Virus record (IMG/VR): IMGVR_UViG_3300010354_013855
Coordinates: 1 to 22,146 of that record
Length of the DNA: 22,146 nucleotides
Reading direction: 5' to 3' (one strand)
DNA from: a virus
The position numbers and the translations under genes were made by a program. Shown here one piece after another: positions 1,893 to 21,773 of the stretch; positions within the stretch are counted from its first letter, which is position 1, and each line of letters begins with the position of its first letter. The notes beneath the pieces are model-generated. The model had not been told where the DNA came from. It saw only the letters and a program-made list of their open reading frames with translations, and did no database searches.

Positions 1893-2461
1893 AAATAGCC
1901 ATAACCGGACATACCGCTGGAATTGGTCGGGCATTGTGCCAACTGCTGACCAATCGAGGTCACGAGATAGTGGGACTCAGCAAACGCGAAGGCCATAATA
2001 TCCGTGTGATTCCGCGCATGGTACAGGCCATTGAACTCTGTGACTTGTTCATCAACAATGCCCAAGCAGGTTATGCCCAGACTGAACTGCTATACGCCAT
2101 ATGGGAACGTTGGCAAGGACAACCCAAGCATATCTGGTGCATCAGTACCATGATGACACAATCGCCCATGGATCCGCCTATTCCAGGACAGAGCATGATA
2201 TCAATGAGCGCATATCGCAATCAAAAGGTAGCATTGGAACATGCATGCCAGCAACTACGATGGAAAAATCATTTACCCAACATCACGGTTATACGTCCAG
2301 GAGGCGTTGCTACACAGCCAGATCAACAATCACCGTGGCCCTATGCTAATGTGTATGCATGGTCTAATAATTTACTAGAAATCATGATCAATGCTGCAAA
2401 TAGCCAACTTGGTATACAAGAAATATCGCTTGGACCTGTCAAGTCTGCTATCCAACTATGA
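1889..2461 (+). CDS. Short-chain dehydrogenase/reductase (SDR)
   Basis: This 190-residue protein has the classical SDR landmarks: the cofactor loop TGHTAGIG (residues 6-13), the NNAQ motif (56-59), a catalytic Ser86 in CISTM, the pair Tyr109-x3-Lys113, and the RPGG turn (136-139). It should bind NAD(P) and oxidise or reduce a hydroxyl/keto group, possibly on a sugar nucleotide, although short SDRs act on many substrates. At 190 residues it is short for the family (about 250), with a compact C-terminal substrate region. It is coupled by 4-base ATGA overlaps to a radical SAM gene on each side, so all three are probably translated together and act on the same product. The fold and catalytic residues are clear; the substrate is not. 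Confidence 0.85.
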   Translation: MKIAITGHTAGIGRALCQLLTNRGHEIVGLSKREGHNIRVIPRMVQAIELCDLFINNAQAGYAQTELLYAIWERWQGQPKHIWCISTMMTQSPMDPPIPGQSMISMSAYRNQKVALEHACQQLRWKNHLPNITVIRPGGVATQPDQQSPWPYANVYAWSNNLLEIMINAANSQLGIQEISLGPVKSAIQL

Positions 2462-3615
2462 ATCCACGAGACTTCCTGACCAATCGTAATTTTTGTCCAA
2501 TGCCCTGGACTGGATTGATGTATAACTTTGATGGCTCAGTCAAGAATTGCATTCGCAGTGCTGGCAAAATTGGAAACATACAACACACACCTATCCAAGA
2601 TATCTTGCAAGGTCCAAAGAATATCCAAACTCAACAAAGCATGCTGGACCGACAACCGGGGTCAGATTGTTACACCTGTTATGATCTCGAGCAAGACAAA
2701 TCAGGATTCGATATCATCAGCGATAGGGTCTTTTATTTGCGCGAGCTCAAACAGCTACCCATGTCCACTTATCAACTGGGTCATCATGACCTGCACACCA
2801 TAGATATTCGATGGACCAATTTGTGTAATTTTTCTTGTGTGTATTGTAGCCCAGAATTCTCCAGCCGTTGGGCGTCTGAATTAAACATCAAGACAGCTGA
2901 ACCCACAGAACAACAGCGACAGGACTTTAAATCATATATTTTCAAACACGCCGCCCAATTAAAGCATGTGTATCTAGCAGGTGGCGAGCCATTGTTGATC
3001 AAAGAAAATCTTGAATTGTTGGATTTACTAAATCCAGACGTAAACCTACGAATCAATACCAATCTCAGCAAAGTAGACACACGCATATTCGAAAGGGTCT
3101 GTGAGTTCAAAAACGTTCATTGGACAGTAAGCGTAGAAACCCAGGCACATGAATTTGAATATATCCGGCATGGTGGTCGATGGCAAGACTTTTTGGATAA
3201 CCTTGACGTTATCGCCAATCTAGGTCACAAGATCACTTTCAACATGTTGCATTTCTTATTGAATTACAACAGCATATTCGACTGCGTGGATTTCTTGAGG
3301 CATCGCGGATTCCACGCCAATTCTTTTGTGATTGGAGCATTGCTTACCCCAGAATACCTAAACATTAGACATCTCCCAGAACATGTGTTACAATCAGTCA
3401 AGAAAGAACTGCAATCACGGATCAATCAAGCACCAGGTTATTTGTTAGAAGATAGTTACAAAAACATGCTGCGCTATATCGATCAACCAATGGAAAAAAA
3501 TCTTTCCGGATCGTTTTCTATGTTGGCACGACTGGATCAACGACGTGGACTCAACAGTTCCGAAATATTTCCGGAGCTATACAAACTTTTTAATCAAGGA
3601 AACTACCATGGGTAA
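2458..3615 (+). CDS. Radical SAM protein with N-terminal twitch-like Fe-S domain (second copy)
   Basis: The 385-residue protein repeats the architecture of the enzyme at 1011-1892. An N-terminal cysteine set (Cys13, Cys31, Cys71, Cys74) resembles a twitch auxiliary cluster. It is followed by the radical SAM motif CNFSCVYC (Cys123, Cys127, Cys130) and GGEP at 175-178. It is about 90 residues longer, with an extra C-terminal region after the barrel. The two proteins are clearly diverged, so they probably act on different positions or steps rather than being redundant. The start ATG overlaps the SDR stop by 4 bases. The last 8 bases overlap the start of uvsX, tying this accessory gene directly to the recombination genes. 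The reaction cannot be deduced from the sequence. Confidence 0.88.
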   Translation: MNPRDFLTNRNFCPMPWTGLMYNFDGSVKNCIRSAGKIGNIQHTPIQDILQGPKNIQTQQSMLDRQPGSDCYTCYDLEQDKSGFDIISDRVFYLRELKQLPMSTYQLGHHDLHTIDIRWTNLCNFSCVYCSPEFSSRWASELNIKTAEPTEQQRQDFKSYIFKHAAQLKHVYLAGGEPLLIKENLELLDLLNPDVNLRINTNLSKVDTRIFERVCEFKNVHWTVSVETQAHEFEYIRHGGRWQDFLDNLDVIANLGHKITFNMLHFLLNYNSIFDCVDFLRHRGFHANSFVIGALLTPEYLNIRHLPEHVLQSVKKELQSRINQAPGYLLEDSYKNMLRYIDQPMEKNLSGSFSMLARLDQRRGLNSSEIFPELYKLFNQGNYHG

Positions 3616-4669
3616 ACCATTTGACGTAAGCAAGTTCCGCAAGGAAATCACCAAAAGTATCGACGGATTATCAATCGGATTTAATGATCCCACCGACTGG
3701 ATTAGCACAGGCAACTATGCTCTCAACTACCTGATCTCAGGCGATTTCAACAGAGGTATTCCACTAGGCAAGGTCACTGTGTTCGCAGGTGAGTCAGGTG
3801 CAGGCAAGAGTTATATCTGCTCAGGCAACATCATCAAGAACGCACAAGAGCAAGGCATATTCGTAGTGTTGATTGATTCAGAAAACGCACTAGACGAGGA
3901 TTGGCTCAAAGCACTAGGTGTAGACACATCAGACAGCAAACTGCTGAAATTAAGCATGGCCATGATCGACGATGTGGCCAAGACCATTTCAACATTTATG
4001 GCTGATTACAAGGCCTTGCCCGACGGCGAGCGACCCAAGGTCATGTTTGTAATTGACAGTTTGGGCATGTTGCTCACTCCCACAGACGTGAACCAGTTTG
4101 ATGCAGGTGAGATGAAAGGTGACCTAGGTCGCAAGCCCAAAGCACTTACAGCCCTTGTGCGTAACTGTGTGAACATGTTTGGCAGTTATAACGTGGGCCT
4201 GGTATGTACCAATCACACCTACGCCAGCCAGGACATGTTTGATCCCGATGACAAGATCTCAGGTGGTCAAGGCTTTATCTATGCCAGCTCGATCGTGGTA
4301 GCCATGAAAAAGCTCAAGCTCAAAGAGGACGAAGATGGCAACAAGATCTCAGACGTGATGGGCATCCGATCAGCCTGCAAGGTCATGAAAACACGCTATG
4401 CCAAGCCCTTTGAAGGCGTGCAGGTCAAGATCCCATACGAAACAGGCATGAATCCCTACTCAGGACTCACTGACCTGGCCGAGAAGAAAGGCCTGCTCAA
4501 AAAGGATGGTAACAGGCTCATGTTTATCACTTCAGACGGTGAGATCATCAAGCACTTCCGCAAAGGCTGGGAAGCCAACGAAGATGGATGCTTGGACAAA
4601 CTCATGGTAGACTTCCAAAATCAGAAAACAGAGGTAAGTAACTCTGAAACTGATTCGGAGGAAGCCTAA
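3608..4669 (+). CDS. uvsX: UvsX-like RecA-family recombinase
   Basis: This 353-residue ATPase has a Walker A, GESGAGKS (residues 61-68), and a Walker B, VMFVID (145-150), in the RecA/UvsX layout. An N-terminal segment lies before the ATPase core, and the C-terminal tail ends in an acidic stretch (ETDSEEA). UvsX forms filaments on single-stranded DNA and drives strand invasion for recombination-dependent replication and repair. I chose ATG 3608 rather than an in-frame start 63 bases upstream: the downstream ATG follows an AAGGAA ribosome binding site, begins the conserved MGKPFDVSKF segment and leaves only an 8-base overlap with the radical SAM gene. The stop overlaps the next start as TAATG. 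The pairing with a UvsY-like gene two positions downstream strengthens the assignment. Confidence 0.93.
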   Translation: MGKPFDVSKFRKEITKSIDGLSIGFNDPTDWISTGNYALNYLISGDFNRGIPLGKVTVFAGESGAGKSYICSGNIIKNAQEQGIFVVLIDSENALDEDWLKALGVDTSDSKLLKLSMAMIDDVAKTISTFMADYKALPDGERPKVMFVIDSLGMLLTPTDVNQFDAGEMKGDLGRKPKALTALVRNCVNMFGSYNVGLVCTNHTYASQDMFDPDDKISGGQGFIYASSIVVAMKKLKLKEDEDGNKISDVMGIRSACKVMKTRYAKPFEGVQVKIPYETGMNPYSGLTDLAEKKGLLKKDGNRLMFITSDGEIIKHFRKGWEANEDGCLDKLMVDFQNQKTEVSNSETDSEEA

Positions 4670-5360: not shown

Positions 5361-5893
5361 AGCCCGGCAAGATCTTGTTAGATATACCACAACAGTACGC
5401 CAGTGTCAACGATCGCCATAGGCGCGAATGGTTCATAAACGATTTGGCGCAGCATCATGGTTGGCGGTGTGGTGCCGAGATTGGCGTGCGGTTTGGTCGT
5501 ACTCTTTTTTGCCTGTTAGACAACAACCCAAATTTAGCAATGTGGGCTGTAGACAAAGACATCACACAGTTTCACAATCAAGATGTGCAAAATCGTTATG
5601 GCACCAGACTCAATGTGCTTTCCGGCATGAGTTGGGATATGGCAGCGCATGTGCCGGATCAAAGTCTTGATTTTTTCTTTATAGATGCAGGACATGGCTA
5701 CAAAAGCGTGATCCGTGATCTAGTGGCCTGGGTGCCGAAACTACGCCCTGATGGGTGGTTCATAGGTCATGACATCAACTTTCCTGCCGTAAATCAAGCC
5801 GTAGTCGATCATTTTGGACATTATTGTGTAGGTCCTGACAATGTGTGGTTCTTGCCTCCCACACATGATGTAAGCATGCTGATAAAATTATAA
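5357..5893 (+). CDS. Class I SAM-dependent methyltransferase (family 24-like)
   Basis: The 178-residue protein has a Rossmann-type SAM-binding start, AEIGVRFGRT (residues 40-49), an acidic residue at the end of the second strand (AVDKD, 64-68), and FFFIDAGHGYKSVIRDL (106-122) followed by LRPDGWFIGHDI. This fits the Methyltransf_24 group, which often acts on sugars or small molecules in glycan clusters. It is the last gene of the plus-strand recombination operon, overlapping uvsY by 4 bases. Its stop overlaps the convergent transferase gene by 6 bases. A second protein of the same type is encoded at 13748-14326. The methyl acceptor is unknown; glycan is likely from the neighbourhood. Confidence 0.8.
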   Translation: MKPGKILLDIPQQYASVNDRHRREWFINDLAQHHGWRCGAEIGVRFGRTLFCLLDNNPNLAMWAVDKDITQFHNQDVQNRYGTRLNVLSGMSWDMAAHVPDQSLDFFFIDAGHGYKSVIRDLVAWVPKLRPDGWFIGHDINFPAVNQAVVDHFGHYCVGPDNVWFLPPTHDVSMLIKL

Positions 5894-6724
5894 CAGCAAT
5901 CTAGCCAAGGGCTCACCAGTTTCAATCTCCGGTATCAGCCACTCTGTGTGTGCCAACTGCTCTAACCACTGTTCACGATCTGGCATCACAGGGTTTTCTA
6001 TCTGTGAAAAATCAAGATTGGCCACAGGCGCAGCCAAACTGTTTGCACCCACAAACGCAGGCACACCACTCAAGATGGCCTGTGTGCCAGGACCGCTGTT
6101 GTGGTTGATCACGGCCCAGGCATCCGCCAAACAGCGATCATAATCAAAGCCATCATAGGTACCTGGCACAGGCTGTGGACTCTGTATCCAGCAACCGGGT
6201 ATGTGGGCTATGCGCTGCCTGGGATGTGGACGTATGATCAAAGGGCGGCTGGTATGCTGCCGTAGTCGAGCTGCGGTTTCTGTGAGCCAGGCCACAGCAG
6301 GTGGTTGACCAGCCCATTGCTCACTATCGTCTCGCTGCATGGCGATGACCACATTGACGCCACGTTCACGCCAGGGTTTCAACCTTAGTCTCAACTGAGC
6401 AGCACGACCAGGCCGTATCTCGCCTGGATAACAGCCCTGCCAAGTACCATTCATGCCCAATTTCCAGGTAAGGTCACGCTGTATCATGCCAACTTCGGCC
6501 ACGATCACAGGTCGATTACTAGCACGAAACAACTGCCATATCTGTTGATTGGATCGCATGCGCCCATGCCATAGCACGCTCCAGATCACCGCCACATCTG
6601 CGCTGCTGTCCATACTGGCATGTGCGATTCCCAGCCTATCTAGTCCTGCTCGGATGGCTGCAAACACAGGTGGGCTATTGAGCGCACCATATTGATCAAA
6701 TATACCCACACGTAGATTTGGCAT
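5888..6724 (-). CDS. GT-B-like capsule/glycan transferase paralogue 1
   Basis: This 278-residue protein has the second-half layout of GT-B-type capsule transferases (Kdo or glycerophosphate transferase-like): PWRERGVNVVIAMQRDD, RPLIIRPHPRQR, and then the acceptor/donor loop NHNSGPGTQAILSGVPAFVG. It ends with a family-specific tail, MPDREQWLEQLAHTEW followed by PEIETGE. The closest paralogue in the window is the gene at 10053-10991 (shared PWR..G..V....QRD, RPHP and MPDREQWL). The gene stands alone on the minus strand between plus-strand blocks. Its ATG lies 11 bases from the ATG of the divergent glycosyltransferase gene, so any promoter must overlap that neighbour. An AAGG ribosome binding site is possible about 9 bases upstream. 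The specific sugar is unknown. Confidence 0.72.
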   Translation of the reverse strand: MPNLRVGIFDQYGALNSPPVFAAIRAGLDRLGIAHASMDSSADVAVIWSVLWHGRMRSNQQIWQLFRASNRPVIVAEVGMIQRDLTWKLGMNGTWQGCYPGEIRPGRAAQLRLRLKPWRERGVNVVIAMQRDDSEQWAGQPPAVAWLTETAARLRQHTSRPLIIRPHPRQRIAHIPGCWIQSPQPVPGTYDGFDYDRCLADAWAVINHNSGPGTQAILSGVPAFVGANSLAAPVANLDFSQIENPVMPDREQWLEQLAHTEWLIPEIETGEPLARLLL

Positions 6725-6730
6725 TAAATA
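6723..6730 (+). promoter_or_regulatory. Possible T4-type late promoter element (ATTAAATA)
   Basis: ATTAAATA matches 6 of 8 positions of the T4 late consensus TATAAATA, including the TAAATA core. It ends 5 bases before the ATG at 6736, the same spacing as the two perfect matches at 12539-12546 and 19245-19252. It overlaps the start codon of the divergent gene. No Shine-Dalgarno sequence is seen before 6736. Confidence 0.45.
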
Positions 6731-6735
6731 ACCTT

Positions 6736-7542
6736 ATGAAATATTCAGTAGTTACCACATTCCATAACCCTGGATACAAACATTATGGCCAGCGCATGAT
6801 ACAGAGCTGGTTAGCATCCTGGCCCGAACAAGTTGACTTGGTAGTTTATGCTGAAAACTGTGAGGTCCAGGAAGCTGGCCACAATCTTGTGATTCGCGAT
6901 ATCTCAATATGTCAAGACCTAACAGATTTCAAAAATAAATGGCAAGATGTACCGCGAGCTAACGGTGATGTCACTGATGATCCTGTGCGCAGCCAGCGCA
7001 GAGATTCAGGTAAAGGATTCAAATGGGACGCTGTAAGATTCGCACACAAGGTCTACAGCATCTTTCATTGTGCCCGGAATCATGCTACTGATTGGCTGAT
7101 CTGGATGGATGCAGACATGGTGTGCCACAGCCCAGTAACACTATCTGATCTAGATCGCCTGTGTCCGCCAGACCGTGATTTGTGTTTTTTAGGTCGTCAA
7201 GGCAAATACTCAGAATGCGGTTTGTATGCCATGAACTTGACCAGCCAACCTGTGATAGCTTGGTTGGAAGATTTCCAAAGATTTTATGATAATGCAGAAC
7301 AAGGAATCTTTACCTTGGCTGAGTGGCATGACAGTTTTGTTTTTGATGCTGTGAGGACTAGACATCAACTGCGTGAATTAGATTGGGCAGCAGGCATAAT
7401 AACCGGAGAAGGCCATCCTTTGATCAACAGTGAATGGGGAGCTTATCTTGATCATCTCAAAGGAGCCCGCAAAGATCTTGGACGTAGCAAGCGCACTGAT
7501 CTACGAGTAAGACGAACAGAAACTTATTGGACCCAACAGTGA
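6736..7542 (+). CDS. GT-A-type glycosyltransferase with DAD motif
   Basis: The 268-residue protein starts with a GT-A-like strand (MKYSVVTTFHN) and carries the metal/nucleotide-sugar motif WLIWMDADMV with DAD at 125-127. It is followed by LGRQGKYSECGLYAMNL and a WHDSFVFDAV segment that probably forms the active site. It should transfer a sugar from a nucleotide donor. I place the start at ATG 6736; a TTG at 6718 in the same frame would overlap the divergent gene and adds residues unlike a GT-A start. The stop overlaps the next gene as GTGA (7539-7542). Acceptor and sugar are unknown. Confidence 0.78.
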   Translation: MKYSVVTTFHNPGYKHYGQRMIQSWLASWPEQVDLVVYAENCEVQEAGHNLVIRDISICQDLTDFKNKWQDVPRANGDVTDDPVRSQRRDSGKGFKWDAVRFAHKVYSIFHCARNHATDWLIWMDADMVCHSPVTLSDLDRLCPPDRDLCFLGRQGKYSECGLYAMNLTSQPVIAWLEDFQRFYDNAEQGIFTLAEWHDSFVFDAVRTRHQLRELDWAAGIITGEGHPLINSEWGAYLDHLKGARKDLGRSKRTDLRVRRTETYWTQQ

Positions 7543-8345
7543 ATTGGTTATTCTTGGACAAAAACAACAGCGACCAGTACATACAGATGTTGGCTCGTGG
7601 ATGTGGTGTTGAACCCACCGATATGACTCAGTGGCAATATGAGCAAAACAGTGAACCATTGGTGCTACGTGGAATCATGAAGCACAAGATCATCAAACGA
7701 TGCTGGCAGGATGGTAGATGGTTCTGGTACATGGATTCGGGATATATGGGCAACAGGATCAGCACCAACAATCCAGGAGGCTGGAAACACTGGCATCGTG
7801 TAGTGCCAAACGACCTACAACACGGGACCGTGTTGCCAAGATCCAGTGATAGATTTGAACGATTGCGAATACGCATCCAACCACGACAATATGGTCGCGA
7901 TATTTTATTGGTGGCACCAGATCACAAGCCCTGCGCATTTTATGGTATAGATCGTGACACATGGTTGACTCAAACCCAAGAGCAGATACGCCAACACACT
8001 GATCATCCAGTCATAATAAGAGAGCGCAGCGTGGATAGACGCAGCCGCAAACAAAATGATTTAGCTGCGCCCAAGAATGTGCATGCTGTGGTCACTTTTA
8101 ACAGTGTGGCCGCAACTGAAGCAGTGCTGGCTGGTGTGCCTGCTTTTGTGTTGGCTCCCAGCAATGCTGCTATACCTGTGGCCAACACCGATTTATCACT
8201 GATAGATAAACCTTGGTTCGCGGAACCTGAGCAAGTGCATGCCTGGGCCTGTCATCTAGCTTATGGCCAATTTCACATACATGAATTACAAGATGGCACG
8301 GCAGCACGCATCTTGACACAAACAAAGGAGATGTTGGATGTATGA
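7539..8345 (+). CDS. GT-B-like glycan transferase paralogue 2
   Basis: A 268-residue member of the six-copy family. It shares FWYMDSGYMGN with paralogues 5 and 6, and RDILLVAPDHKPC with other copies. It also has HPVIIRERSVDRRSRK, the loop TFNSVAATEAVLAGVPAFVL, and the C-terminal signature LAYGQFHIHELQDGTAARIL. I chose GTG 7539, which overlaps the previous stop as GTGA and begins like paralogue 5 (NWLFLDKN..., then LARGCGV against FAEGCGA). A TTG 12 bases upstream is the alternative. The family resembles capsule polysaccharide transferases with a GT-B fold. The classical RPHP motif is replaced here by a basic RERSVDRRSRK stretch, so donor binding may differ from paralogues 1 and 4. Confidence 0.7.
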   Translation: MNWLFLDKNNSDQYIQMLARGCGVEPTDMTQWQYEQNSEPLVLRGIMKHKIIKRCWQDGRWFWYMDSGYMGNRISTNNPGGWKHWHRVVPNDLQHGTVLPRSSDRFERLRIRIQPRQYGRDILLVAPDHKPCAFYGIDRDTWLTQTQEQIRQHTDHPVIIRERSVDRRSRKQNDLAAPKNVHAVVTFNSVAATEAVLAGVPAFVLAPSNAAIPVANTDLSLIDKPWFAEPEQVHAWACHLAYGQFHIHELQDGTAARILTQTKEMLDV

Positions 8346-8982
8346 ATATTTAGGTTGGCATTTTCCTGACCAAGAAACTCATTTCCCTCACATGCTACAG
8401 AAAAATGTTGATCGTGGCGGACCTGCTGAATATCAAAGTCCTGTGAGAGAAAGAAGCCTTAGACTTTGCCAAGCACGCGGGTTGGCCTTGGATGTAGGAG
8501 CCAATGTGGGACTATGGAGTCGCGACTTGTGCAAACATTTTGATAGAGTGATTGCTTTTGAACCGGTGGCTTTGTTCAGAGAATGTTTGATCAAAAATGT
8601 TACCGGACAAAATCTACTGGTAAGGCCAGAAGCCTTGGGCAGTGAGAATACTCGTATCAACATGATTATAACACAGCACAATACAGGACATAGTCATGTG
8701 GATCCCACGAGCCTGGGCAATGGCCATATCAATATGATCACTCTAGACAGTCTGGATATAGGCAAAGTGGACTATGTCAAGATTGATTGCGAAGGTTATG
8801 AATACAATATCATACTTGGAGCCCGCAACACCCTGTTGACCAGCAAACCTATCATCGTAGTAGAGGACAAAAGACACAAAGACGTTGGACACGCACATAC
8901 CGAAATTGCCGTAGATACCTTGATAAGTTGGGGAGCTCGAATACTGTCTAGGATCAAAGATGATGTGATTTTGGGATGGTGA
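8338..8982 (+). CDS. FkbM-family methyltransferase
   Basis: This 214-residue protein has the FkbM pattern: LDVGANVGLWS (SAM loop, residues 51-61), FDRVIAFEPV with the acidic ribose contact, and DYVKIDCEGYEYNIILGA, followed by KPIIVVEDK. FkbM-type enzymes are O-methyltransferases, frequent in polysaccharide clusters, where they methylate sugar hydroxyls. The gene overlaps the previous one by 8 bases and is one base away from the next, between two copies of the transferase family. It is therefore probably expressed with them and acts on the same glycan. Confidence 0.88.
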   Translation: MYEYLGWHFPDQETHFPHMLQKNVDRGGPAEYQSPVRERSLRLCQARGLALDVGANVGLWSRDLCKHFDRVIAFEPVALFRECLIKNVTGQNLLVRPEALGSENTRINMIITQHNTGHSHVDPTSLGNGHINMITLDSLDIGKVDYVKIDCEGYEYNIILGARNTLLTSKPIIVVEDKRHKDVGHAHTEIAVDTLISWGARILSRIKDDVILGW

Positions 8983-8983
8983 C

Positions 8984-10060
8984 ATGTATCTAGTATTGAA
9001 TCATGATGAAGTAGTAACTGGGTTAGCTAAAAAAATCATAGCTCGGTCGTTGCGCGGTCGTGAACCGGATTGGTCGACCTCCACTGCGTATCTTCGCAAG
9101 ATGGATAAAAAGTTCTTGAAAACTGGCTTGATAGAAATCAATTTTGCTACCTTGAATGAACTGCTGATGCAAGACACCAAAAGTTACAAGGAAAGTTTGA
9201 CGAAAGAGTACAAGAAAAGATATCGTGGTCTCATCAGCTGGTTAGCTGATAGATATGATCTTCTTGATATACCCAACTCCCAACTAACAAGTCTTTATCT
9301 ACATGACCCCGCAGTTGGCTTTGTCAAAGCCATGAGCCAGCACATGACTCAAGATCCTGTATGGAAAGTGGCAGGCGAAATCATTCCAGATGATCAACCT
9401 GTGCTGATTAGGGGTAACGCACCTGTGCATCATGCTCTACTAAGTCATCGTATTCAAAGTCAATTGCCTTTTTGGTTTGTGGATACTGGGTATACCAATT
9501 TCCTTACAGGCAAAAAAACTTGGCATCGACTTGTGGCCGATCATATACACCATATACCTCCTAACACATATTTCCCACCAGATAGATTGACGACTTTACC
9601 TAGTTTGCCACAACCATGGCGTGATCAAGGCCGCGACATCTTGGTAGTTGAAAACAGTGATAAGCATTATCAAATGTTTGGTACCACTTTGTCTGCCTGG
9701 CGACAAGGTGTCAAGGAAACACTCAGCAAACTCACAGACAAACCTATCAAATTCCGCCCTAAATCAGACGATATCAAAAATCGTGATAGTCTATATGAAC
9801 ATCTGACTCAGTCAGATTATTACTGTGTGATAACAGATGCCAGCGCGGCCGCGATAGAAGCAGTTTGGGCAGGCATACCCATAATCACCTTAAACACACA
9901 CATCAGCCGACCAGTGGCTCGCACCAGTCTAGAGGACATAAATGATCTGTATCGAGGGCCCATAGGTGATTGGCTGTGCGCTCTTTCGTATAGCCAATTT
10001 ACTCAAAGAGAAATGTTTGATGGAACTGCCCTGAGATTGATGGAGCAATATTATGTTTGA
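8984..10060 (+). CDS. GT-B-like glycan transferase paralogue 3 with N-terminal extension
   Basis: At 358 residues this is the longest copy of the six-member family. The first 100 or so residues, rich in Lys/Asp and helical in character (LTKEYKKRYRGLISWLADRY), have no counterpart in the other copies and could be a separate acceptor-binding or interaction domain. The rest follows the family: PFWFVDTGYTNF, GRDILVVENSDKHY, the basic KPIKFRPKSDDIKNR stretch, the ITDASAAAIEAVWAGIPIIT loop, and the tail LSYSQFTQREMFDGTALRLM. The stop overlaps paralogue 4 by 8 bases. Its C-terminal signature is closest to paralogue 6 (12533-11697). I infer a glycosyl or phosphoglycosyl transferase. Confidence 0.68.
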   Translation: MYLVLNHDEVVTGLAKKIIARSLRGREPDWSTSTAYLRKMDKKFLKTGLIEINFATLNELLMQDTKSYKESLTKEYKKRYRGLISWLADRYDLLDIPNSQLTSLYLHDPAVGFVKAMSQHMTQDPVWKVAGEIIPDDQPVLIRGNAPVHHALLSHRIQSQLPFWFVDTGYTNFLTGKKTWHRLVADHIHHIPPNTYFPPDRLTTLPSLPQPWRDQGRDILVVENSDKHYQMFGTTLSAWRQGVKETLSKLTDKPIKFRPKSDDIKNRDSLYEHLTQSDYYCVITDASAAAIEAVWAGIPIITLNTHISRPVARTSLEDINDLYRGPIGDWLCALSYSQFTQREMFDGTALRLMEQYYV

Positions 10061-10991
10061 TGTGGTGGTGTATCTCAGTAGCCTACCGCGTATAGCAGAT
10101 CGCAATCGCAAGGTGGAGGTTCTAGAAGCTTTTGCTGCCGGCGCCAGATCCCAAGGAGCTTCGGTGTTGATACAAACTCAGCATCAAGTAGTAGATTGCA
10201 AGTTGGCGGTGATCCTGGGTTGGGTAGGTACCAAGATACGAGGATCCCATATACAGCTACGGCGAGATGTGATAGATCATCAACGTAAGACCGGCAATCA
10301 CGTGATGCCCATAGACAGCAGTTGTTTCAAATTTGTGGATCAAGACAGCGTTTTCTTGAGGTACAGCCTAGATGGCGTGTTCTATAACAAAGATATCTAT
10401 GCCAACGCTGATAGCGACGATACCAAATGGTGTGAAATACAGCACAAGTTTGGACTTGAATTACAACCTTGGCGTACACATGGAGACCATGTGCTGGTAT
10501 GTTTGCAACGCGATGGAGGTTGGAGCATGAAAGGTACAGACATGTCGGAATGGACCTATCGTACCGTGCATCAACTGAGAGATCTTACCCAAAGACCAAT
10601 TTTGGTTCGCCCACACCCAAAGTATCGCATGGATCTGTCAGGCTTATCTGATATACCCAATGTAAAACAAAGCATGGATGGATCAAAGTTGCAACAGGAT
10701 CTGAGGGGCGCCTGGGCTGCTGTATTTTGTAACAGCAGCAGTAGTGTTGCAGCAGTATTGGCTGGTATACCAGTGTTTGCCGATGATGATGATTGTGTGG
10801 CCTGGGATGTGGCCAATCATGATTTACAACATATCGAAGATCCTGCCATGCCTGATCGGGAGCAATGGTTGAATGATCTATGCGCAGCTCATTGGACTGA
10901 TCATGACAGCATCACAGGAGAGATCTACAAAAAATTTAGACCTTATTTAATAGATCCCATGCCAGACCCGATTTCATCTCAGGCTCTGTAA
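10053..10991 (+). CDS. GT-B-like glycan transferase paralogue 4
   Basis: A 312-residue copy closest to paralogue 1: shared LQPWRTHGDHVLVCLQRDG, RPILVRPHPKYR, FCNSSSSVAAVLAGIPVFAD and MPDREQWLNDL. RPHP plus the Ser-rich loop are typical of capsule/Kdo-type GT-B enzymes. The C-terminus extends about 15 residues beyond the family end (LIDPMPDPISSQAL) and runs 56 bases into the convergent gene on the minus strand. The start ATG at 10053 overlaps the previous stop. The extension may be neutral read-through into the neighbour after a rearrangement that placed the two genes tail to tail. Confidence 0.7.
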   Translation: MFDVVVYLSSLPRIADRNRKVEVLEAFAAGARSQGASVLIQTQHQVVDCKLAVILGWVGTKIRGSHIQLRRDVIDHQRKTGNHVMPIDSSCFKFVDQDSVFLRYSLDGVFYNKDIYANADSDDTKWCEIQHKFGLELQPWRTHGDHVLVCLQRDGGWSMKGTDMSEWTYRTVHQLRDLTQRPILVRPHPKYRMDLSGLSDIPNVKQSMDGSKLQQDLRGAWAAVFCNSSSSVAAVLAGIPVFADDDDCVAWDVANHDLQHIEDPAMPDREQWLNDLCAAHWTDHDSITGEIYKKFRPYLIDPMPDPISSQAL

Positions 10992-11700
10992 ACTGACAAT
11001 AACTCAAATGTTTCATCCAGGATTCTTTACAATCGGGATCTATGTTTGGAAGATCATCAATCAATTCTATACCAGAAGTGCAAACTTGGCAAGCTGCGCT
11101 AGGACCTAGGCTTACTACAGGAATGTCATGTAGTACCGAGTCTACTGCACACGAACTTATGTAAGTGACCACGGCGTTGATATTATTACGCAACATATCT
11201 GTAAAACGATCAGCTTTTGATCTGATTGATCGTGATTTTGGACGTTGACGTATTTCAATGTCTCGATCAGTAAATTGTTTTACAATTCTTTGTGTCTGAT
11301 CTAGCCATAGATCCGGACTGCCTAAACCATAGTGCAGGCATTGTTTGTCGTCGGGAGGAACTATAAGTATTTTTTTCCCGCGATCAATGGTGCTTGTATC
11401 AATTTTTATTTTGTCTAATCTATCTCTTGGACGCATGATGATTGGGCCACAGGCATGAATCTGATTTTTCAAGACTCTGAGATAGTTCTTTTTTTTGTAG
11501 TTGCCAAAATAACCAGTGTCTATATAGTACCAATCTAATCCATATTTTTTTGCCTGCGCTATGCATGCATTGGTAGTGATACCACTAAAAATCATTGGCC
11601 ACTTGGTATTTTGATTGATACCTGCCAGGTCAACCCATGTGGCTCCACACCCTTCTGCAAAGTGTTTTATTTTTTCACGGTTTTGGAAAGCTAGTATCAT
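10936..11700 (-). CDS. GT-B-like glycan transferase paralogue 5
   Basis: The 254-residue protein is a compact family copy: FAEGCGATWVDLAG near the start, DWYYIDTGYFGNYKKKN, KKILIVPPDDKQCLHYG, the basic DIEIRQRPKSRSIRSK stretch, VVTYISSCAVDSVLHDIPVV, and LSYCQFTEPEMKSGLAWDLL. I chose ATG 11700, which forms a 4-base ATGA overlap with the upstream copy; a TTG at 11721 is possible but gives a larger overlap. The gene seems more AT-rich than its neighbours. Its 3' end overlaps the convergent paralogue 4. Four copies (2, 3, 5, 6) share the D-[ST/N]-GY motif absent from copies 1 and 4, so the family has two subgroups. Confidence 0.68.
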   Translation of the reverse strand: MILAFQNREKIKHFAEGCGATWVDLAGINQNTKWPMIFSGITTNACIAQAKKYGLDWYYIDTGYFGNYKKKNYLRVLKNQIHACGPIIMRPRDRLDKIKIDTSTIDRGKKILIVPPDDKQCLHYGLGSPDLWLDQTQRIVKQFTDRDIEIRQRPKSRSIRSKADRFTDMLRNNINAVVTYISSCAVDSVLHDIPVVSLGPSAACQVCTSGIELIDDLPNIDPDCKESWMKHLSYCQFTEPEMKSGLAWDLLNKV

Positions 11701-12533
11701 TGCTCGGTTAGGATGCGCCAAGCAGTGCCATCGGACATCTCGGCGAAAGTGAATTGACTATAACTTAGGTGTCTTAACCAAGCGTTTCTTTCATCTTCTG
11801 ATGGAAAGTAAGGTTTTTCAATATCGCTGATGTTACGAGAGCATATTTCTTGGGCTGCATTGGGTCCCAGAGTGATGGCAGGTTTGCCCAACATCACTGC
11901 CTCAACAGCCGCCACTGAGCTGAAAGTAATCAAACAATGAACATCATTGGCCAAAGTTTGCTGCATGGTGTCCACTTTGCTGCGTTCTTCTCTATTGCGT
12001 TTTAGGCGTACTTCAATTGGACGGTCGGTATATTTTTTGATCTCAGCAATGGTATCTTCAATCCAGCGGGTTTGATTGATATCCCACATGCTGAAACTTT
12101 TTTCGCTAGGCGGTGCCAGCAATATTTTGCGTCCTGGACTGTACGGCTTGAGCATGTACTGTAACTGTTGCAATCTTTTGGGATGACGATTTTGTATAGG
12201 ACGACAATCATGCACATTGTTTTTGATGATACGGAAATGTGTTTTCTTACTGACATTACCAATGTACCCATTGTCTATGTAATAAAAGGTACGTCCGGTG
12301 GCCCAGCAGTATTTGACTGATTTGGTCAATTTCATACCTCTGATACACCAAGGATGGGAAGCTGGTAGATGCCAGGCCTCTTGGCTGCTCATCACTATGC
12401 CATCACAACCCTTGCTGAAACTTTTGGCAAACACACCTTGACGGCGATCTGAGGGATGATAATCTAACTTGCGATCTATACACAACACCTGTGTGGGATA
12501 TGCGGTACGATTCAATATGATTTCAGGTTTCAT
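11697..12533 (-). CDS. GT-B-like glycan transferase paralogue 6
   Basis: A 278-residue family copy with TFYYIDNGYIGNVSKKTHF, GRKILLAPPSEKSFSMW, PIEVRLKRNREERSK, the LITFSSVAAVEAVMLGKPAI loop, and the signature LSYSQFTFAEMSDGTAWRIL. The N-terminal 40 residues are specific to this copy, but GVFAKSFSKGCDG matches the GCG segment of copies 2 and 5. The ATG at 12533 is preceded, after 5 bases, by a perfect TATAAATA on the same strand, with no clear Shine-Dalgarno sequence between them. It is the first gene of a two-gene unit with paralogue 5. The transferred sugar is unknown. Confidence 0.7.
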   Translation of the reverse strand: MKPEIILNRTAYPTQVLCIDRKLDYHPSDRRQGVFAKSFSKGCDGIVMSSQEAWHLPASHPWCIRGMKLTKSVKYCWATGRTFYYIDNGYIGNVSKKTHFRIIKNNVHDCRPIQNRHPKRLQQLQYMLKPYSPGRKILLAPPSEKSFSMWDINQTRWIEDTIAEIKKYTDRPIEVRLKRNREERSKVDTMQQTLANDVHCLITFSSVAAVEAVMLGKPAITLGPNAAQEICSRNISDIEKPYFPSEDERNAWLRHLSYSQFTFAEMSDGTAWRILTEQ

Positions 12534-16476: not shown

Positions 16477-17051
16477 TGTAGATCCCTGGTGAAACTGAAT
16501 TTGTTTTGTCTCACACGCACCACGTCGTGGTGATCATGTTGCACATCCACTATGCCATCACACAGCATCCAGTCTGCTGGCATAGCTCCATGCTCATGCA
16601 CCCAAGAGATTATTTTGGCTGCACCTTGCGGCGTGATCATGTAGGCTCTAGCACCCTCCCACCATTGACCAGGAGGTATTGGTTTGCTGGGTCGGAAACC
16701 TTCCAACTTGACCACATCTTGTATGTCTACATTCACTGGTCCTGCCACAAACTCTACATCATGCTCAAAGATGGCCAAAGTTTGATTGGTCTGCACACAT
16801 TGATTCCAAAGTCGCCAATGGCTCAAGAAACAACCTTGGGTGCCTGGACGCTGCATGTATTTCACGCATTTTTTATGATTTGGATATATCCTGATACCAT
16901 GCTGAGCTAGATCTGTGGTACGACCATCTGTGCCAGAGAACAAACTTAGATTCCAACCATGGGCACGACCGGTGGTCAGAGCATGTTGACTCCATTCACA
17001 GCTATCTGAGAATGCTTCCAGCCTGATTATAAAACCAGCTAAGGTCTCCAT
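16473..17051 (-). CDS. Glycosyltransferase family 25-like protein (second copy)
   Basis: The 192-residue protein has the GT25 layout: GCFLSHWRLWNQCV (residues 73-86), then LAIFEHDVEFV with EHD at 96-98, then a GARAYMITPQGAAKII segment and PADWMLCD. It shares the SHW-x-LW core and EHD with the protein at 12561-13220 but is clearly diverged, so the two probably act at different steps. It is compact compared with cellular GT25 proteins (about 250 residues). It overlaps the double-domain glycosyltransferase gene by 13 bases and the GT-A gene by 4. Confidence 0.84.
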   Translation of the reverse strand: METLAGFIIRLEAFSDSCEWSQHALTTGRAHGWNLSLFSGTDGRTTDLAQHGIRIYPNHKKCVKYMQRPGTQGCFLSHWRLWNQCVQTNQTLAIFEHDVEFVAGPVNVDIQDVVKLEGFRPSKPIPPGQWWEGARAYMITPQGAAKIISWVHEHGAMPADWMLCDGIVDVQHDHHDVVRVRQNKFSFTRDLQ

Positions 17052-18478
17052 TTGTCTACCATGTCCTGAAATACCTTTTGATTTTTAAGATCGCCTTTGC
17101 CTGTGAAAAATTTCATGTCACGTTTGGCACCCCAACTACACCATGATATGTCGATGTTTTCAAACTCTATGCTGCTGAATATATGTTTGAGTTGGTGCTG
17201 GTCCATGAACCAATAAGCACCTTTGCTGAAACCTCGCAGCAGACCAGTACGAAATCTATGCCTAAATTCTTGTCCTGCTTCACCTGTGCCTAAACTGATG
17301 CAACTGGCTATCAAGGTATCTGGATCTTTGGGTTTGCGCATGCCGCGAGGAGTCTCAGTCAATGCTTCAAATTCTTCTTGATCAAAAGTGTTACACAATA
17401 TGGTATCAGCATCTATTTGTAGCACGTATTGATCAGATTCAAACAAGTCGGCCATGCGCATGAACCTGGCACAACTAAAGTATATTTTTTCACGCATCTG
17501 ATCATGATCATCAGTTTTGAGTATCTGAGTGTTGCGATACATGCGTGGCGCGCTGGTGTTGAGTGGAATGCCTTGTATGAATTCTTTGGTTAGTATCTCG
17601 TGACTATAGGTTACTCTGTCATGAGTGTATAGATTATCACACAGTTGATCATAGCACATGAGATGCACATGTACACTCAACCAATCAATCTGTTGAACTA
17701 TGCTGTGTATGAGTGGAATGACCATGCGCTGATAATATTCGGTATCACAGCTCACGTAGATCACATGTTTGCCTTGAGGTTTATCTCCCAATAATTCTGG
17801 CAGTTCAAAAGTCTGTTCGCAATACTCAGTCAAAGCTCTTTCATCATGCCAGACTTCAGCTTGCGGCGAGTCCTTATATTCTCGAAAGCAAGGTGTGCCT
17901 AGTGTATAGTGCAGCAATTTGGCATGGGGATTTGGCCCTAGTTCGTCTGGCAACCAGTTCCATTCTATGGGCAATTCACCTATACGCTGATCTTGCAACC
18001 AGCTAAAACGATGTAGATAGCTGCCTTCCTGCTGTTGAACGAATGTTGGTTTCAATTTGCGATTGGGGAACGCACCGCAATTCCATAGAATCACGCTGCT
18101 CCAATTCTTGCGTGGATAGTCTGGGTTTTTGGCACCCATATATTTGAACCGTTGTCGGGTCACATAATCATGTTTGACCACCATGACATCCTTGTTGTAT
18201 TCACGCAGATTCCAAAGTTTCACAATGTCGTCGCGTAGCACCATGTCACCATCTATGTATATGGCCCAACCATTGAATCCCATGAGATGTGGCACCAGGA
18301 ATCGAGAATATATAAACTGATTTGATCCATCATGATGTGTTTCAACATAATCTTGCAAAAGATTCAAACACAATGGATGTATGGTCACTGGTTCAGAAGC
18401 ATGTCGTATGATGCTGTTCACGCACACGTGAAACGCTATTGCTTCTTTGGGATCATATCCTATGAATATGGGTATCAT
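17039..18478 (-). CDS. Tandem double-domain GT-A glycosyltransferase
   Basis: This 479-residue protein contains two GT-A domains in one chain. The first (about residues 1-230) starts IPIFIGYDPKEAIAFHVCVN and has YIDGDMVL with DGD at 76-78. It continues with WNCGAFP, WNWLPDELGP and KLLHYTLGTPCF, a GT8-like late His included. The second (about 237-479) restarts with HVIYVSCDTEYYQRMVIPLI and has YVLQIDADTIL with DAD at 356-358. Both DXD motifs look intact, so the protein may add two sugars in sequence or one domain may bind the acceptor. The ATG at 18478 overlaps the previous stop as ATGA. Confidence 0.82.
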   Translation of the reverse strand: MIPIFIGYDPKEAIAFHVCVNSIIRHASEPVTIHPLCLNLLQDYVETHHDGSNQFIYSRFLVPHLMGFNGWAIYIDGDMVLRDDIVKLWNLREYNKDVMVVKHDYVTRQRFKYMGAKNPDYPRKNWSSVILWNCGAFPNRKLKPTFVQQQEGSYLHRFSWLQDQRIGELPIEWNWLPDELGPNPHAKLLHYTLGTPCFREYKDSPQAEVWHDERALTEYCEQTFELPELLGDKPQGKHVIYVSCDTEYYQRMVIPLIHSIVQQIDWLSVHVHLMCYDQLCDNLYTHDRVTYSHEILTKEFIQGIPLNTSAPRMYRNTQILKTDDHDQMREKIYFSCARFMRMADLFESDQYVLQIDADTILCNTFDQEEFEALTETPRGMRKPKDPDTLIASCISLGTGEAGQEFRHRFRTGLLRGFSKGAYWFMDQHQLKHIFSSIEFENIDISWCSWGAKRDMKFFTGKGDLKNQKVFQDMVDKWRP

Positions 18479-19239
18479 CTGCGCTCGATATCATCTTCTA
18501 CACAGCGTGAGCCATACTGTATCTCTACCACACGCAGGGCATGCTCAGTTTCATTGCTGAGCTGATGCCATTGAGACTTGCAGATATGTATGTGCTCAAA
18601 TTGTTCGTAGGTACCCAACAAGTCTAGGTCTGTGCTGCGATCCAGGCTGTAAACAGTGGCCCGTCCTTCAGCTACAAACCAGTGCTCGGCTCTATCACCA
18701 TGCCGTTGCATGCTGAGCCGTTGGCCCGGTTCTACCACCAGTTCTTTGACCTTGACCTGTTGGCCTTGTTCATGCAGCACACGATAGTATCCCCAGTTTC
18801 TCGGAGTCTTGGGTGCTTTCCATTCTGTGAGTATCCAGGAGCTGGAGTTCTTTTTGTGGTCGCCGCCTATGCCAAACTGGAACTCAAGATTGGGATCCTG
18901 CACAGTCATTTCGGGTATGTTTACATCAGTGCGGTCGCCACCATTGGCGAATATGATGCGATCTTGTGGATAACTCTGGCGCACCATCCAGATGGCGTGT
19001 CTGGCTGAGCCATCAGAGTCATCAAAGTCAATGACGAAATCCACACCCGACATGGCTCTCAAGATAGCAGCACGTTCCATCAAGGGCATGAATGCCCGAC
19101 CCTTTTTGCGGGCCAGCCATTGATCTGAATTCACACCCACTACCAGGATGTCTCCCAGTTTCTTGGCAGCTTGAATGTAAGCAATGTGTCCGCTGTGTAC
19201 GGGATCAAACCCGCCTGTGACCAGCACGATAGTTTTCAT
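18475..19239 (-). CDS. Nucleotidyltransferase-cupin (phosphomannose isomerase-like) fusion
   Basis: The 254-residue protein joins two enzymes of sugar activation. The N-terminus is a cytidylyltransferase-like domain (TGGFDPVHSGH, HxGH at residues 15-18; GVNSDQWLARKKGR; FANGGDR), like the adenylyl/cytidylyltransferase half of RfaE/HldE. The C-terminus (about 146-254) is a cupin like the isomerase end of ManC-type proteins: RNWGYYRVL, VVEPGQRLSMQRHGDRAEHW, then HICKSQWHQLSN. In the metal motif the usual H-x-H reads H180-G-D182. I prefer ATG 19239 over ATG 19245, because it begins MKTIVLVTGGFDP and lies 5 bases after a perfect TATAAATA. It heads the minus-strand operon. It would supply an activated sugar; which sugar is unknown. 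Confidence 0.83.
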   Translation of the reverse strand: MKTIVLVTGGFDPVHSGHIAYIQAAKKLGDILVVGVNSDQWLARKKGRAFMPLMERAAILRAMSGVDFVIDFDDSDGSARHAIWMVRQSYPQDRIIFANGGDRTDVNIPEMTVQDPNLEFQFGIGGDHKKNSSSWILTEWKAPKTPRNWGYYRVLHEQGQQVKVKELVVEPGQRLSMQRHGDRAEHWFVAEGRATVYSLDRSTDLDLLGTYEQFEHIHICKSQWHQLSNETEHALRVVEIQYGSRCVEDDIERR

Positions 19240-19244
19240 GCGCA

Positions 19245-19252
19245 TATTTATA
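19245..19252 (-). promoter_or_regulatory. T4-type late promoter element (perfect TATAAATA)
   Basis: Minus-strand TATAAATA, followed by TGCGC and the ATG at 19239. The spacing is identical to the element before 12533. It probably drives the whole minus-strand operon down to 12561. A second late-type core, on the plus strand, lies 18 bases away, so this is a bidirectional late promoter region. Confidence 0.72.
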
Positions 19253-21432: not shown

Positions 21433-21464
21433 TTCCCCAGCAAAATCAATGACTTAGCGCCTGG

Positions 21465-21493
21465 TTGACCAGAAATACTCATTTTGCTACAAT
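21465..21493 (+). promoter_or_regulatory. Sigma70-like promoter P2
   Basis: TTGACC (21465-21470), a 17-base spacer, TACAAT (21488-21493). It lies in the 93-base gap before the ATG at 21526 and is preceded by GG, like the other promoters of this group. A conserved leader box follows at 21498-21519. Confidence 0.82.
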
Positions 21494-21497
21494 ATGG

Positions 21498-21519
21498 ACA
21501 TACAGTAAACAAACAGGAG
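21498..21519 (+). repeat. Conserved leader box, copy 1
   Basis: ACATACAGTAAAC, a variable base, then AACAGGAG (with flanking A's), ending in the ribosome binding site 6 bases before ATG 21526. Copy 2 at 21746-21767 differs at one of 22 positions. It would form the first 20 or so bases of the transcript. Confidence 0.75.
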
Positions 21520-21525
21520 CCAAAT

Positions 21526-21708: not shown

Positions 21709-21712
21709 GCGG

Positions 21713-21741
21713 TTGACCAGAAAAGGCCATTTCTATATAAT
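21713..21741 (+). promoter_or_regulatory. Sigma70-like promoter P3
   Basis: TTGACC (21713-21718), a 17-base spacer, and a consensus TATAAT (21736-21741). It has the best -10 of the group, five bases after the previous stop codon. The leader box follows at 21746. Confidence 0.88.
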
Positions 21742-21745
21742 GTTG

Positions 21746-21767
21746 ACATACAGTAAACGAACAGGAG
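21746..21767 (+). repeat. Conserved leader box, copy 2
   Basis: Same 22-base box as at 21498-21519 with one base changed (G for A in the middle), including the AGGAGG ribosome binding site before ATG 21774. A weaker relative, TTACAGTAAAAGAAC plus GGGG, follows promoter P4 at 22016-22034. Confidence 0.75.
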
Positions 21768-21773
21768 GCAGCA

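Follow-up and report, generated by a model that had tools for sequence, protein, structure and literature searches.

Six phage proteins best described as relatives of retaining Kdo transferases that have lost the defining nucleophile

Retaining transferases of beta-linked 3-deoxy-D-manno-oct-2-ulosonic acid (Kdo) share a modified GT-B fold and are represented by KpsC (GT107), the N-terminal domain of WbbB (GT99) and KrkA (GT140). Passages of PMC10148158 and PMC12887879 describe Kdo as covalently bound to the Asp of a QXXXD motif in these enzymes. They link the Gln of that motif with the carboxylate of Kdo and an HP-type motif with cytidine monophosphate (CMP), and give the role of base to a Glu. 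The base role of KpsC Glu66 is given in a section of PMC10148158, and the base of KrkA sits on another element according to a section of PMC12887879. A further KpsC-related enzyme, the pseudaminic acid transferase KpsS1 (GT118), takes a donor other than Kdo (as stated in an excerpt of PMC12887879). Here, we describe six proteins encoded within 22,146 nucleotides of viral DNA (IMG/VR virus record IMGVR_UViG_3300010354_013855, positions 1 to 22,146; this whole stretch is called the window). The family to which they belong is best seen as phage-borne relatives of these transferases, and its six members in the window have lost the defining nucleophile: the covalent Asp–Kdo adduct is used by WbbB and KrkA (passages of PMC12887879), and that Asp is found in none of the six.

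All six open reading frames (ORFs) are open where an earlier reading of the window's letters (the original prediction) had placed them, and BLASTP among the six separates them into two clans:

Copy 1, 5888–6724, minus strand: clan B, Ser type; KpsC-like GT-B protein with Gln130, R165-P-H167-P168, Glu77 and Ser210; Ser134 in the nucleophile column.
Copy 2, 7539–8345, plus strand: clan A; DSGY; without the Gln and HP.
Copy 3, 8984–10060, plus strand: clan A; helical insert after beta strand 1, at about residues 7–121 of the model.
Copy 4, 10053–10991, plus strand: clan B, Gly type; QRDGG and RPHP; Gly in the nucleophile column and Asp in the general-base column.
Copy 5, 10936–11700, minus strand: clan A; tail-to-tail overlap of 56 bases with copy 4 (10936–10991, opposite strands).
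Copy 6, 11697–12533, minus strand: clan A; DNGY; RLKR where RPHP would be.

Copy 2 has a GTG at 7539 (the mechanical ORF begins at a TTG at 7527). The start codon of copy 5 is the ATG at 11700, which gives a four-base overlap with the end of copy 6. Clan A members share 28–35% identity (E 1e-21 to 1e-48) and copies 1 and 4 share 35% (E 3e-29), while identities between the clans are 21–32% with a best E of 3e-17; copies 4 and 5 had no significant BLASTP match to each other. The clan A and clan B profiles matched with a probability of 100% (E 1.5e-42 over 244 columns), so that BLASTP and profile matches link all six as homologues, and the proposed division into copies 1/4 and 2/3/5/6 is borne out. 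The subgroup motifs are also as originally read, with QRD, RPHP and MPDREQWL in copies 1 and 4 and D-[STN]-GY in copies 2, 3, 5 and 6. Less general was the C-terminal signature LSYSQFT..EM.DGTA attributed to all copies: copies 3 and 6 match it well, copies 2 and 5 more loosely, and little of it is left in copies 1 and 4. No seventh member was found in the window by a profile search at E 1e-5, which returned the six.

To compare folds, AlphaFold2 models of copies 3 and 1 were built on 76 clan A and 75 clan B rows. These came from 94 and 127 ranked candidates, of which the highest 75 were taken in each case, and one partial row was removed from the clan B set. The predicted local distance difference test scores were 96.4 for copy 1 and 93.9 for copy 3. 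For copy 1, the 15 best Protein Data Bank (PDB) entries among the matches listed were all KpsC, WbbB or KrkA (Z 13.8–10.6; root mean square deviation 3.9–5.3 over 220–232 residues), and the next entry was a uridine diphosphate (UDP)-N-acetylglucosamine (GlcNAc) epimerase at Z 9.5. KpsC and WbbB also led for copy 3 (Z 10.1–9.0), with KrkA at 8.5 to 8.1. The models thus place copies 1 and 3 in the modified GT-B fold of the retaining beta-Kdo transferases, clearly for copy 1 and by a small margin for copy 3, and copies 2, 4, 5 and 6 would have the same fold given their homology to the two modelled copies. The original claim of one family with a GT-B-type transferase fold agrees with these results. 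UDP-GlcNAc 2-epimerases and UDP/thymidine diphosphate glycosyltransferases (CalG, GtfA) were considered as sources of the fold and rejected, having lower Z scores and covering mostly one domain in the copy 3 comparison. Profile searches of PDB sequences returned chance-level matches only, and it was by comparing folds that the family could be placed.

The part of copy 3 that had been taken for a private N-terminal domain is the helical insert that follows its first beta strand, and it is not private. Specifically, phmmer found it in four orthologues (L008, L009, L012 and L013; L numbers denote loci) among 458 proteins, copy 3 included, and did not detect it in the long proteins of L016, L018 and L135 of the copy 3 clade, phmmer being the only method used there.

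Relatives were collected from IMG/VR, where the clan A query had at least 591 relatives and the clan B query 82; because 80 were kept in each case, all frequencies given here are those of a biased sample. Together with the window and three phage records, the fetched stretches make up 164 sources, the stretches having been fetched because they hold the family. The 164 carry 509 homologous ORFs, with at least one on every source and two to five on 151. Motif counts are based on the 458 of 509 proteins that have 225–450 residues, near copies included (258 clan B rows, 199 of them distinct, and 200 clan A rows). The median ratio of nonsynonymous to synonymous substitution rates was 0.089 (range 0.033–0.276 in 51 of 52 close pairs, one being saturated), and the family genes are therefore maintained by selection. 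The family is common in uncultured phages, often near uvsX.

The active-site columns were defined against 19 KpsC/KpsS-type modules from bacterial genomes. These were picked by a pattern requiring a QXXXD-type and an HP motif, so the two motifs are true of the set by selection. The clan B profile matched this set with a probability of 95% (E 8e-9), pairing Gln130 of copy 1 with the Gln of QXXXD, Ser134 with its Asp, RPHP with KxHP and Glu77 with the Glu of EDG, which is KpsC Glu66 as counted on an alignment to 6mgc. The same motifs stood in register in 14 rows of a MAFFT alignment made without the clan and KpsC profiles. Copies 1 and 4 resemble KpsC modules in the Gln, the (K/R)XHP CMP-binding motif (RPHP in both) and the acidic base column, and copies 1 and 3 do so in their modelled fold. 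Unlike KpsC, all six lack the nucleophile Asp (Ser in copy 1, Gly in copy 4, the motif being gone in clan A), copies 2, 3, 5 and 6 also lack the Gln and the HP motif, and the six are single short modules in phage arrays. The KpsC Glu66 column is acidic throughout, with Glu in copy 1 and Asp in the other five.

This pattern extends across the relatives. In clan B, the Gln and the Arg and His of RxHP are each present in 258/258 rows, the Pro in 254/258 and an acidic base column (Asp or Glu) in 258/258, whereas the nucleophile column holds Gly in 133, Ser in 101, Asp in 18 and Asn in 6. Ser-type and Gly-type rows each have near-fixed neighbours of their own (Gln136 in 101/101 Ser-type rows; Arg131 in 133/133 and His261 in 131/133 Gly-type rows), which points to separate functions of the two types. 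Clan A has Lys or Arg at the His column in 200/200 rows, Pro at the Gln column in 177/200 and Asp or Glu at the base column in 188/200.

These columns suggest a possible course of events. An ancestral copy with a full QXXXD and RxHP site would, by virtue of that site, probably have taken a CMP-activated ulosonic sugar, for instance Kdo, and transferred it in a double-displacement reaction. Duplications would have taken place long ago, after which one lineage would have lost the Asp nucleophile and kept the acid at the KpsC Glu66 column. Given their retained CMP motif, copies 1 (Ser) and 4 (Gly) would most likely transfer an acidic sugar linked to CMP in a single step. The acid, which is Glu77 in copy 1 and Asp in copy 4, would activate the acceptor, a route that predicts an inverting product. 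Copies 2, 3, 5 and 6 would have diverged further, and the Lys/Arg in place of His together with the missing Gln makes another activated donor probable for them.

It is possible that the copies are still retaining enzymes, with a neighbouring acid, such as the Asp two residues after the Gln (Gln+2) in copy 4, acting as nucleophile, or with the front-face internal substitution (SNi) route of other retaining GT-B enzymes. Their fold and CMP motif are indeed those of retaining enzymes, and Asp at Gln+2 is common in Gly-type rows (84/133), which makes a relocated nucleophile conceivable for copy 4 and counts against inversion there. However, that position is also Asn (31/133) or Pro (11/133) in Gly-type rows, and Ser-type rows have no conserved acid at Gln+1 to Gln+3 (Asp at Gln+2 in 17/101 and at Gln+3 in 25/101). 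We thus regard continued retention as unlikely, while taking it as the most serious competitor to one-step inverting transfer.

A quick KpsC-rooted tree of 113 rows was made with 7 of the 19 KpsC/KpsS modules as outgroup. QXXXD is present in the first family branches, L204 from a bacterial genome and L170 from phage ct7QV12, and is also kept in two further phage groups; the losses of Asp, Gln and His require one change each. QXXXD members occur in 14/161 sources, and in 13 of these (IMG/VR loci, all but L170) they lie beside Gly-type and Ser-type copies, so some phages carry the ancestral type next to derived types. At 95% identity they form 10 groups, 9 without L170. On these sequences, the history looks like a stepwise remodelling of the donor site in which the double-displacement mechanism was lost. 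The full scenario, that a covalent-adduct retaining Kdo-type transferase gave rise in phages, through a single nucleophile loss, to enzymes that use new donors and invert by single displacement, with the ancestral type kept in some phages, is one that we advance tentatively and consider somewhat more apt to fail than to hold. We note separately that the full-QXXXD member of phage ct7QV12 (MW202713.1, 4792–5613) lies in a stretch that is left almost entirely without gene annotation in the record.

With regard to the origin of the array, the original prediction took the six for recent local copies produced by duplication with inversion. The members are homologous and adjacent, but the closest relatives of each window copy sit in other phages (43–74% identity). 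Its siblings in the window do not always match it, and those that do stand at ranks 32 to 426 in match lists of 336 to 448 rows. On a tree of 95 rows including database homologues, the six fall into six different clades, each with proteins of other phages, and a single clade for them is rejected by the approximately unbiased test (p 4e-67). Gene order agrees: the copy 3–copy 4 pair is on the same strand as the preceding family copy in L013, L016, L018 and L135 and is reversed in the window, L008, L009 and L012 (L012 has no copy 5 type and no counterpart between copies 6 and 4). Since the pair runs with the preceding copy in relatives, the orientation change in the window is better read as inversion of a pre-existing copy 3–copy 4 pair. 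Recent local duplication with inversion is therefore refuted within the limits of the sampled relatives, and we give it next to no probability.

The array has a recurrent gene core across relatives. When each gene is typed by the window gene that it matches best, the 64 loci with a length of 15 kb or more include the copy 1 type in 57, the copy 4 type in 61 and the copy 2 or 6 type in 58, with copy 1, copy 4 and any clan A type together in 50. Partners in the same 64 loci are uvsX (53), a nucleotidyltransferase-cupin gene (52), a GT8 gene (54) and the gene found at 6718–7542 in the window (56). Copies 3 and 5 are best matches on 12/164 sources each, window included. The named partners in the window are as follows:

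UvsX/RecA-like recombinase, 3545–4669, plus strand: the array is near uvsX in many relatives.
GT-A-like protein, 6718–7542, plus strand: weak Glycos_transf_2 match (E 0.08); divergent from copy 1.
FkbM-type methyltransferase, 8338–8982, plus strand: recurrent neighbour.
GT8-type glycosyltransferase, 17039–18478, minus strand: recurrent partner.
Nucleotidyltransferase-cupin fusion, 18475–19245, minus strand: CTP_transf_like (E 1.6e-14) and MannoseP_isomer (E 2.9e-21); recurrent partner.

The divergent pair of a copy 1 type and the GT-A-like gene occurs 73 times in 163 fetched sources. The GT8 partner is shorter (about 680–720 bases) in intact examples ahead of a clan A copy, among the matches listed. 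For the nucleotidyltransferase of the fusion, the nearest NCBIfam models are of the heptose and glycerol-phosphate kind, below cut-off, and the cupin is of the mannose-6-phosphate isomerase type. The 15 best UvsX relatives among the matches listed (62–69% identity) belong to phages with 337–490 kb genomes. Overall, the array is surrounded by transferases of the GT25, GT8, GT-A-like and GT1 kinds, methyltransferases that include FkbM, the nucleotidyltransferase-cupin fusion, radical S-adenosylmethionine (SAM) proteins and UvsX, and these surroundings look like a glycosylation and modification cassette. Twitch-domain radical SAM proteins are encoded at 1011–1892 (NF033640, 130 bits, below the cut-off of 170) and 2458–3615 (246 bits, over it); the pair flanks an epimerase-like gene and has relatives on 9 and 28 of the 164 sources. 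Elsewhere in the window, two 60-base direct repeats (21463–21522 and 21711–21770, 80% alike) each contain TTGACC followed after 17 bases by TACAAT or TATAAT, and AGGAG lies towards the end of each; by eye, the repeats look like duplicated promoters with ribosome sites.

A pattern scan of the species-genome collection matched 33 stretches, which led to two loci. L171 (PAOW01000003.1), filed under a Euryarchaeota metagenome-assembled genome (MAG), has a helicase-like gene and a glycosylation cassette with three family members; its genes, read by eye, suggest that it is probably a misbinned phage contig. L172 (1–5893 of a Pseudomonadota MAG contig) carries an S49 peptidase gene, a Phage_cap_E capsid gene and one unnamed ORF, then two family members; it is part of a prophage or phage in which the family lies close to the capsid gene. 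With only two such loci, one a phage contig and one near a capsid gene, we set aside an ordinary host capsule operon as the home of the family. When 398 genomes of L172's phylum were searched with a profile, 8 genomes had matches at E <= 0.001. The match was strong (E 4e-31 or better) in three of the 8, L172's own genome among them, so rare cellular or prophage members exist in the one phylum sampled.

Together with their GT8, GT25, GT-A-like, FkbM and nucleotidyltransferase-cupin partners, the six may assemble a glycan stepwise, most likely on virion proteins, which we favour as its target. A long, ordered glycan or a set of exchangeable surface decorations, as the original prediction proposed, would be conceivable products. 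In the cultured Caulobacter phages CcrColossus and CcrSC, members lie after the tail genes and before the lysis genes, and the two in L172 are downstream of the Phage_cap_E gene; the named neighbours of members in the window and in Pelagibacter phage Mosig are not structural. Mycobacteriophage virions are glycosylated, according to work cited in a portion of PMC12619734. Modified phage DNA would be another acceptor: the window's array is near the recombination gene uvsX, and DNA-modifying phage glycosyltransferases are known (likewise cited in that portion of PMC12619734). However, no modified-base synthesis gene was recognised among the Pfam-scanned genes of the window, a 22-kb fragment, and members sit by tail genes in the two cultured relatives and by a capsid gene in one locus; DNA as the target is thus quite improbable in our estimation. 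It is somewhat less improbable, though still unlikely, that the cassette alters the lipopolysaccharide or capsule of the host, perhaps as a means of keeping other phages out. The KpsC-like enzymes would then work on a host glycan; capsule and O-antigen are what the closest characterised enzymes act on. This would be at odds with the lack of any recognised flippase or polymerase family among the Pfam-scanned window genes, and the several methyltransferases may suggest a capped decoration instead.

Our results support homology of the six, the fold as modelled for copies 1 and 3, the motif columns, the pattern of loss on the tree, selection and the neighbouring genes. On the reading that we prefer, the six would be glycosyltransferases that share ancestry and fold with KpsC, WbbB and KrkA, the reaction would be inverting transfer of a CMP-linked acidic sugar by copies 1 and 4 and use of another donor by clan A, and the glycan would most likely be placed on virion proteins. 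As a whole, we consider this reading evenly poised, and several points weigh against it. The clan A profile matched the KpsC set with a probability of only 73% (E 3e-5), and the copy 3 structure has a small lead, an epimerase (Z 8.8) tying with the lowest WbbB rows. The base column is non-acidic in 12/200 clan A rows, and another acid that is nearly invariant in both clans (Glu266 of copy 1, Glu343 of copy 3) could be the catalytic residue. The KpsC-rooted tree includes long rows, and its deep forks are poorly supported, which leaves room for a small number of independent losses; the 13 loci with QXXXD beside derived types are partly near copies, representing about 9 distinct proteins. In the window, no CMP-Kdo synthesis gene was recognised among the Pfam-scanned genes, and the array adjoins uvsX rather than structural genes. 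Finally, to our knowledge no activity is known for any family member.

General libraries hardly cover the family. Neither Pfam nor PHROGs gave a confident family for the six, and NCBIfam gave none for copies 1 and 6, the two scanned; among 75 clan B and 76 clan A rows, PHROGs matches were with single members only. The only recurrent Pfam relative is DUF6716 (PF20471, putative glycosyltransferase), matched by 19/76 clan A rows at E <= 0.01 (best 5.5e-5) and by 1/75 clan B rows, and L204, with its full QXXXD, passes the DUF6716 cut-off (32.4 vs 27 bits). Copies 2, 3 and 6 reach 9.9–14.0 bits against the same cut-off of 27, the matches being short and C-terminal where a position is shown; copies 1, 4 and 5 have no match at E <= 1. 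PF05159 (Capsule_synth) has no match in the window, and is matched by 1/75 clan B rows (E 0.0011) and 0/76 clan A rows at E <= 0.01. As the nucleophile Asp is in none of the six, we do not file them under GT99, GT107 or GT140. The open-access titles listed on GT107, QXXXD, phage Kdo transferases and virion glycosylation, among them titles on E. coli capsules, bacterial enzymes and algal viruses, included none describing such a phage family.

These results describe a large phage family with the fold of the retaining Kdo transferases and the key residue mostly missing, and they provide that fold, with a guess at the donor chemistry of the copy 1 and copy 4 types. Intact relatives are found in some of the same arrays, and the change of mechanism is therefore testable on natural pairs. 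If the proposed history is true, the family would be a natural series for how glycosyltransferase stereochemistry changes. The window's six copies belong to a family of probable sugar-attaching enzymes that is widespread, little described and related to capsule enzymes of bacteria; as the six lack the residue that grips the sugar in those relatives, they probably work by a different chemistry.

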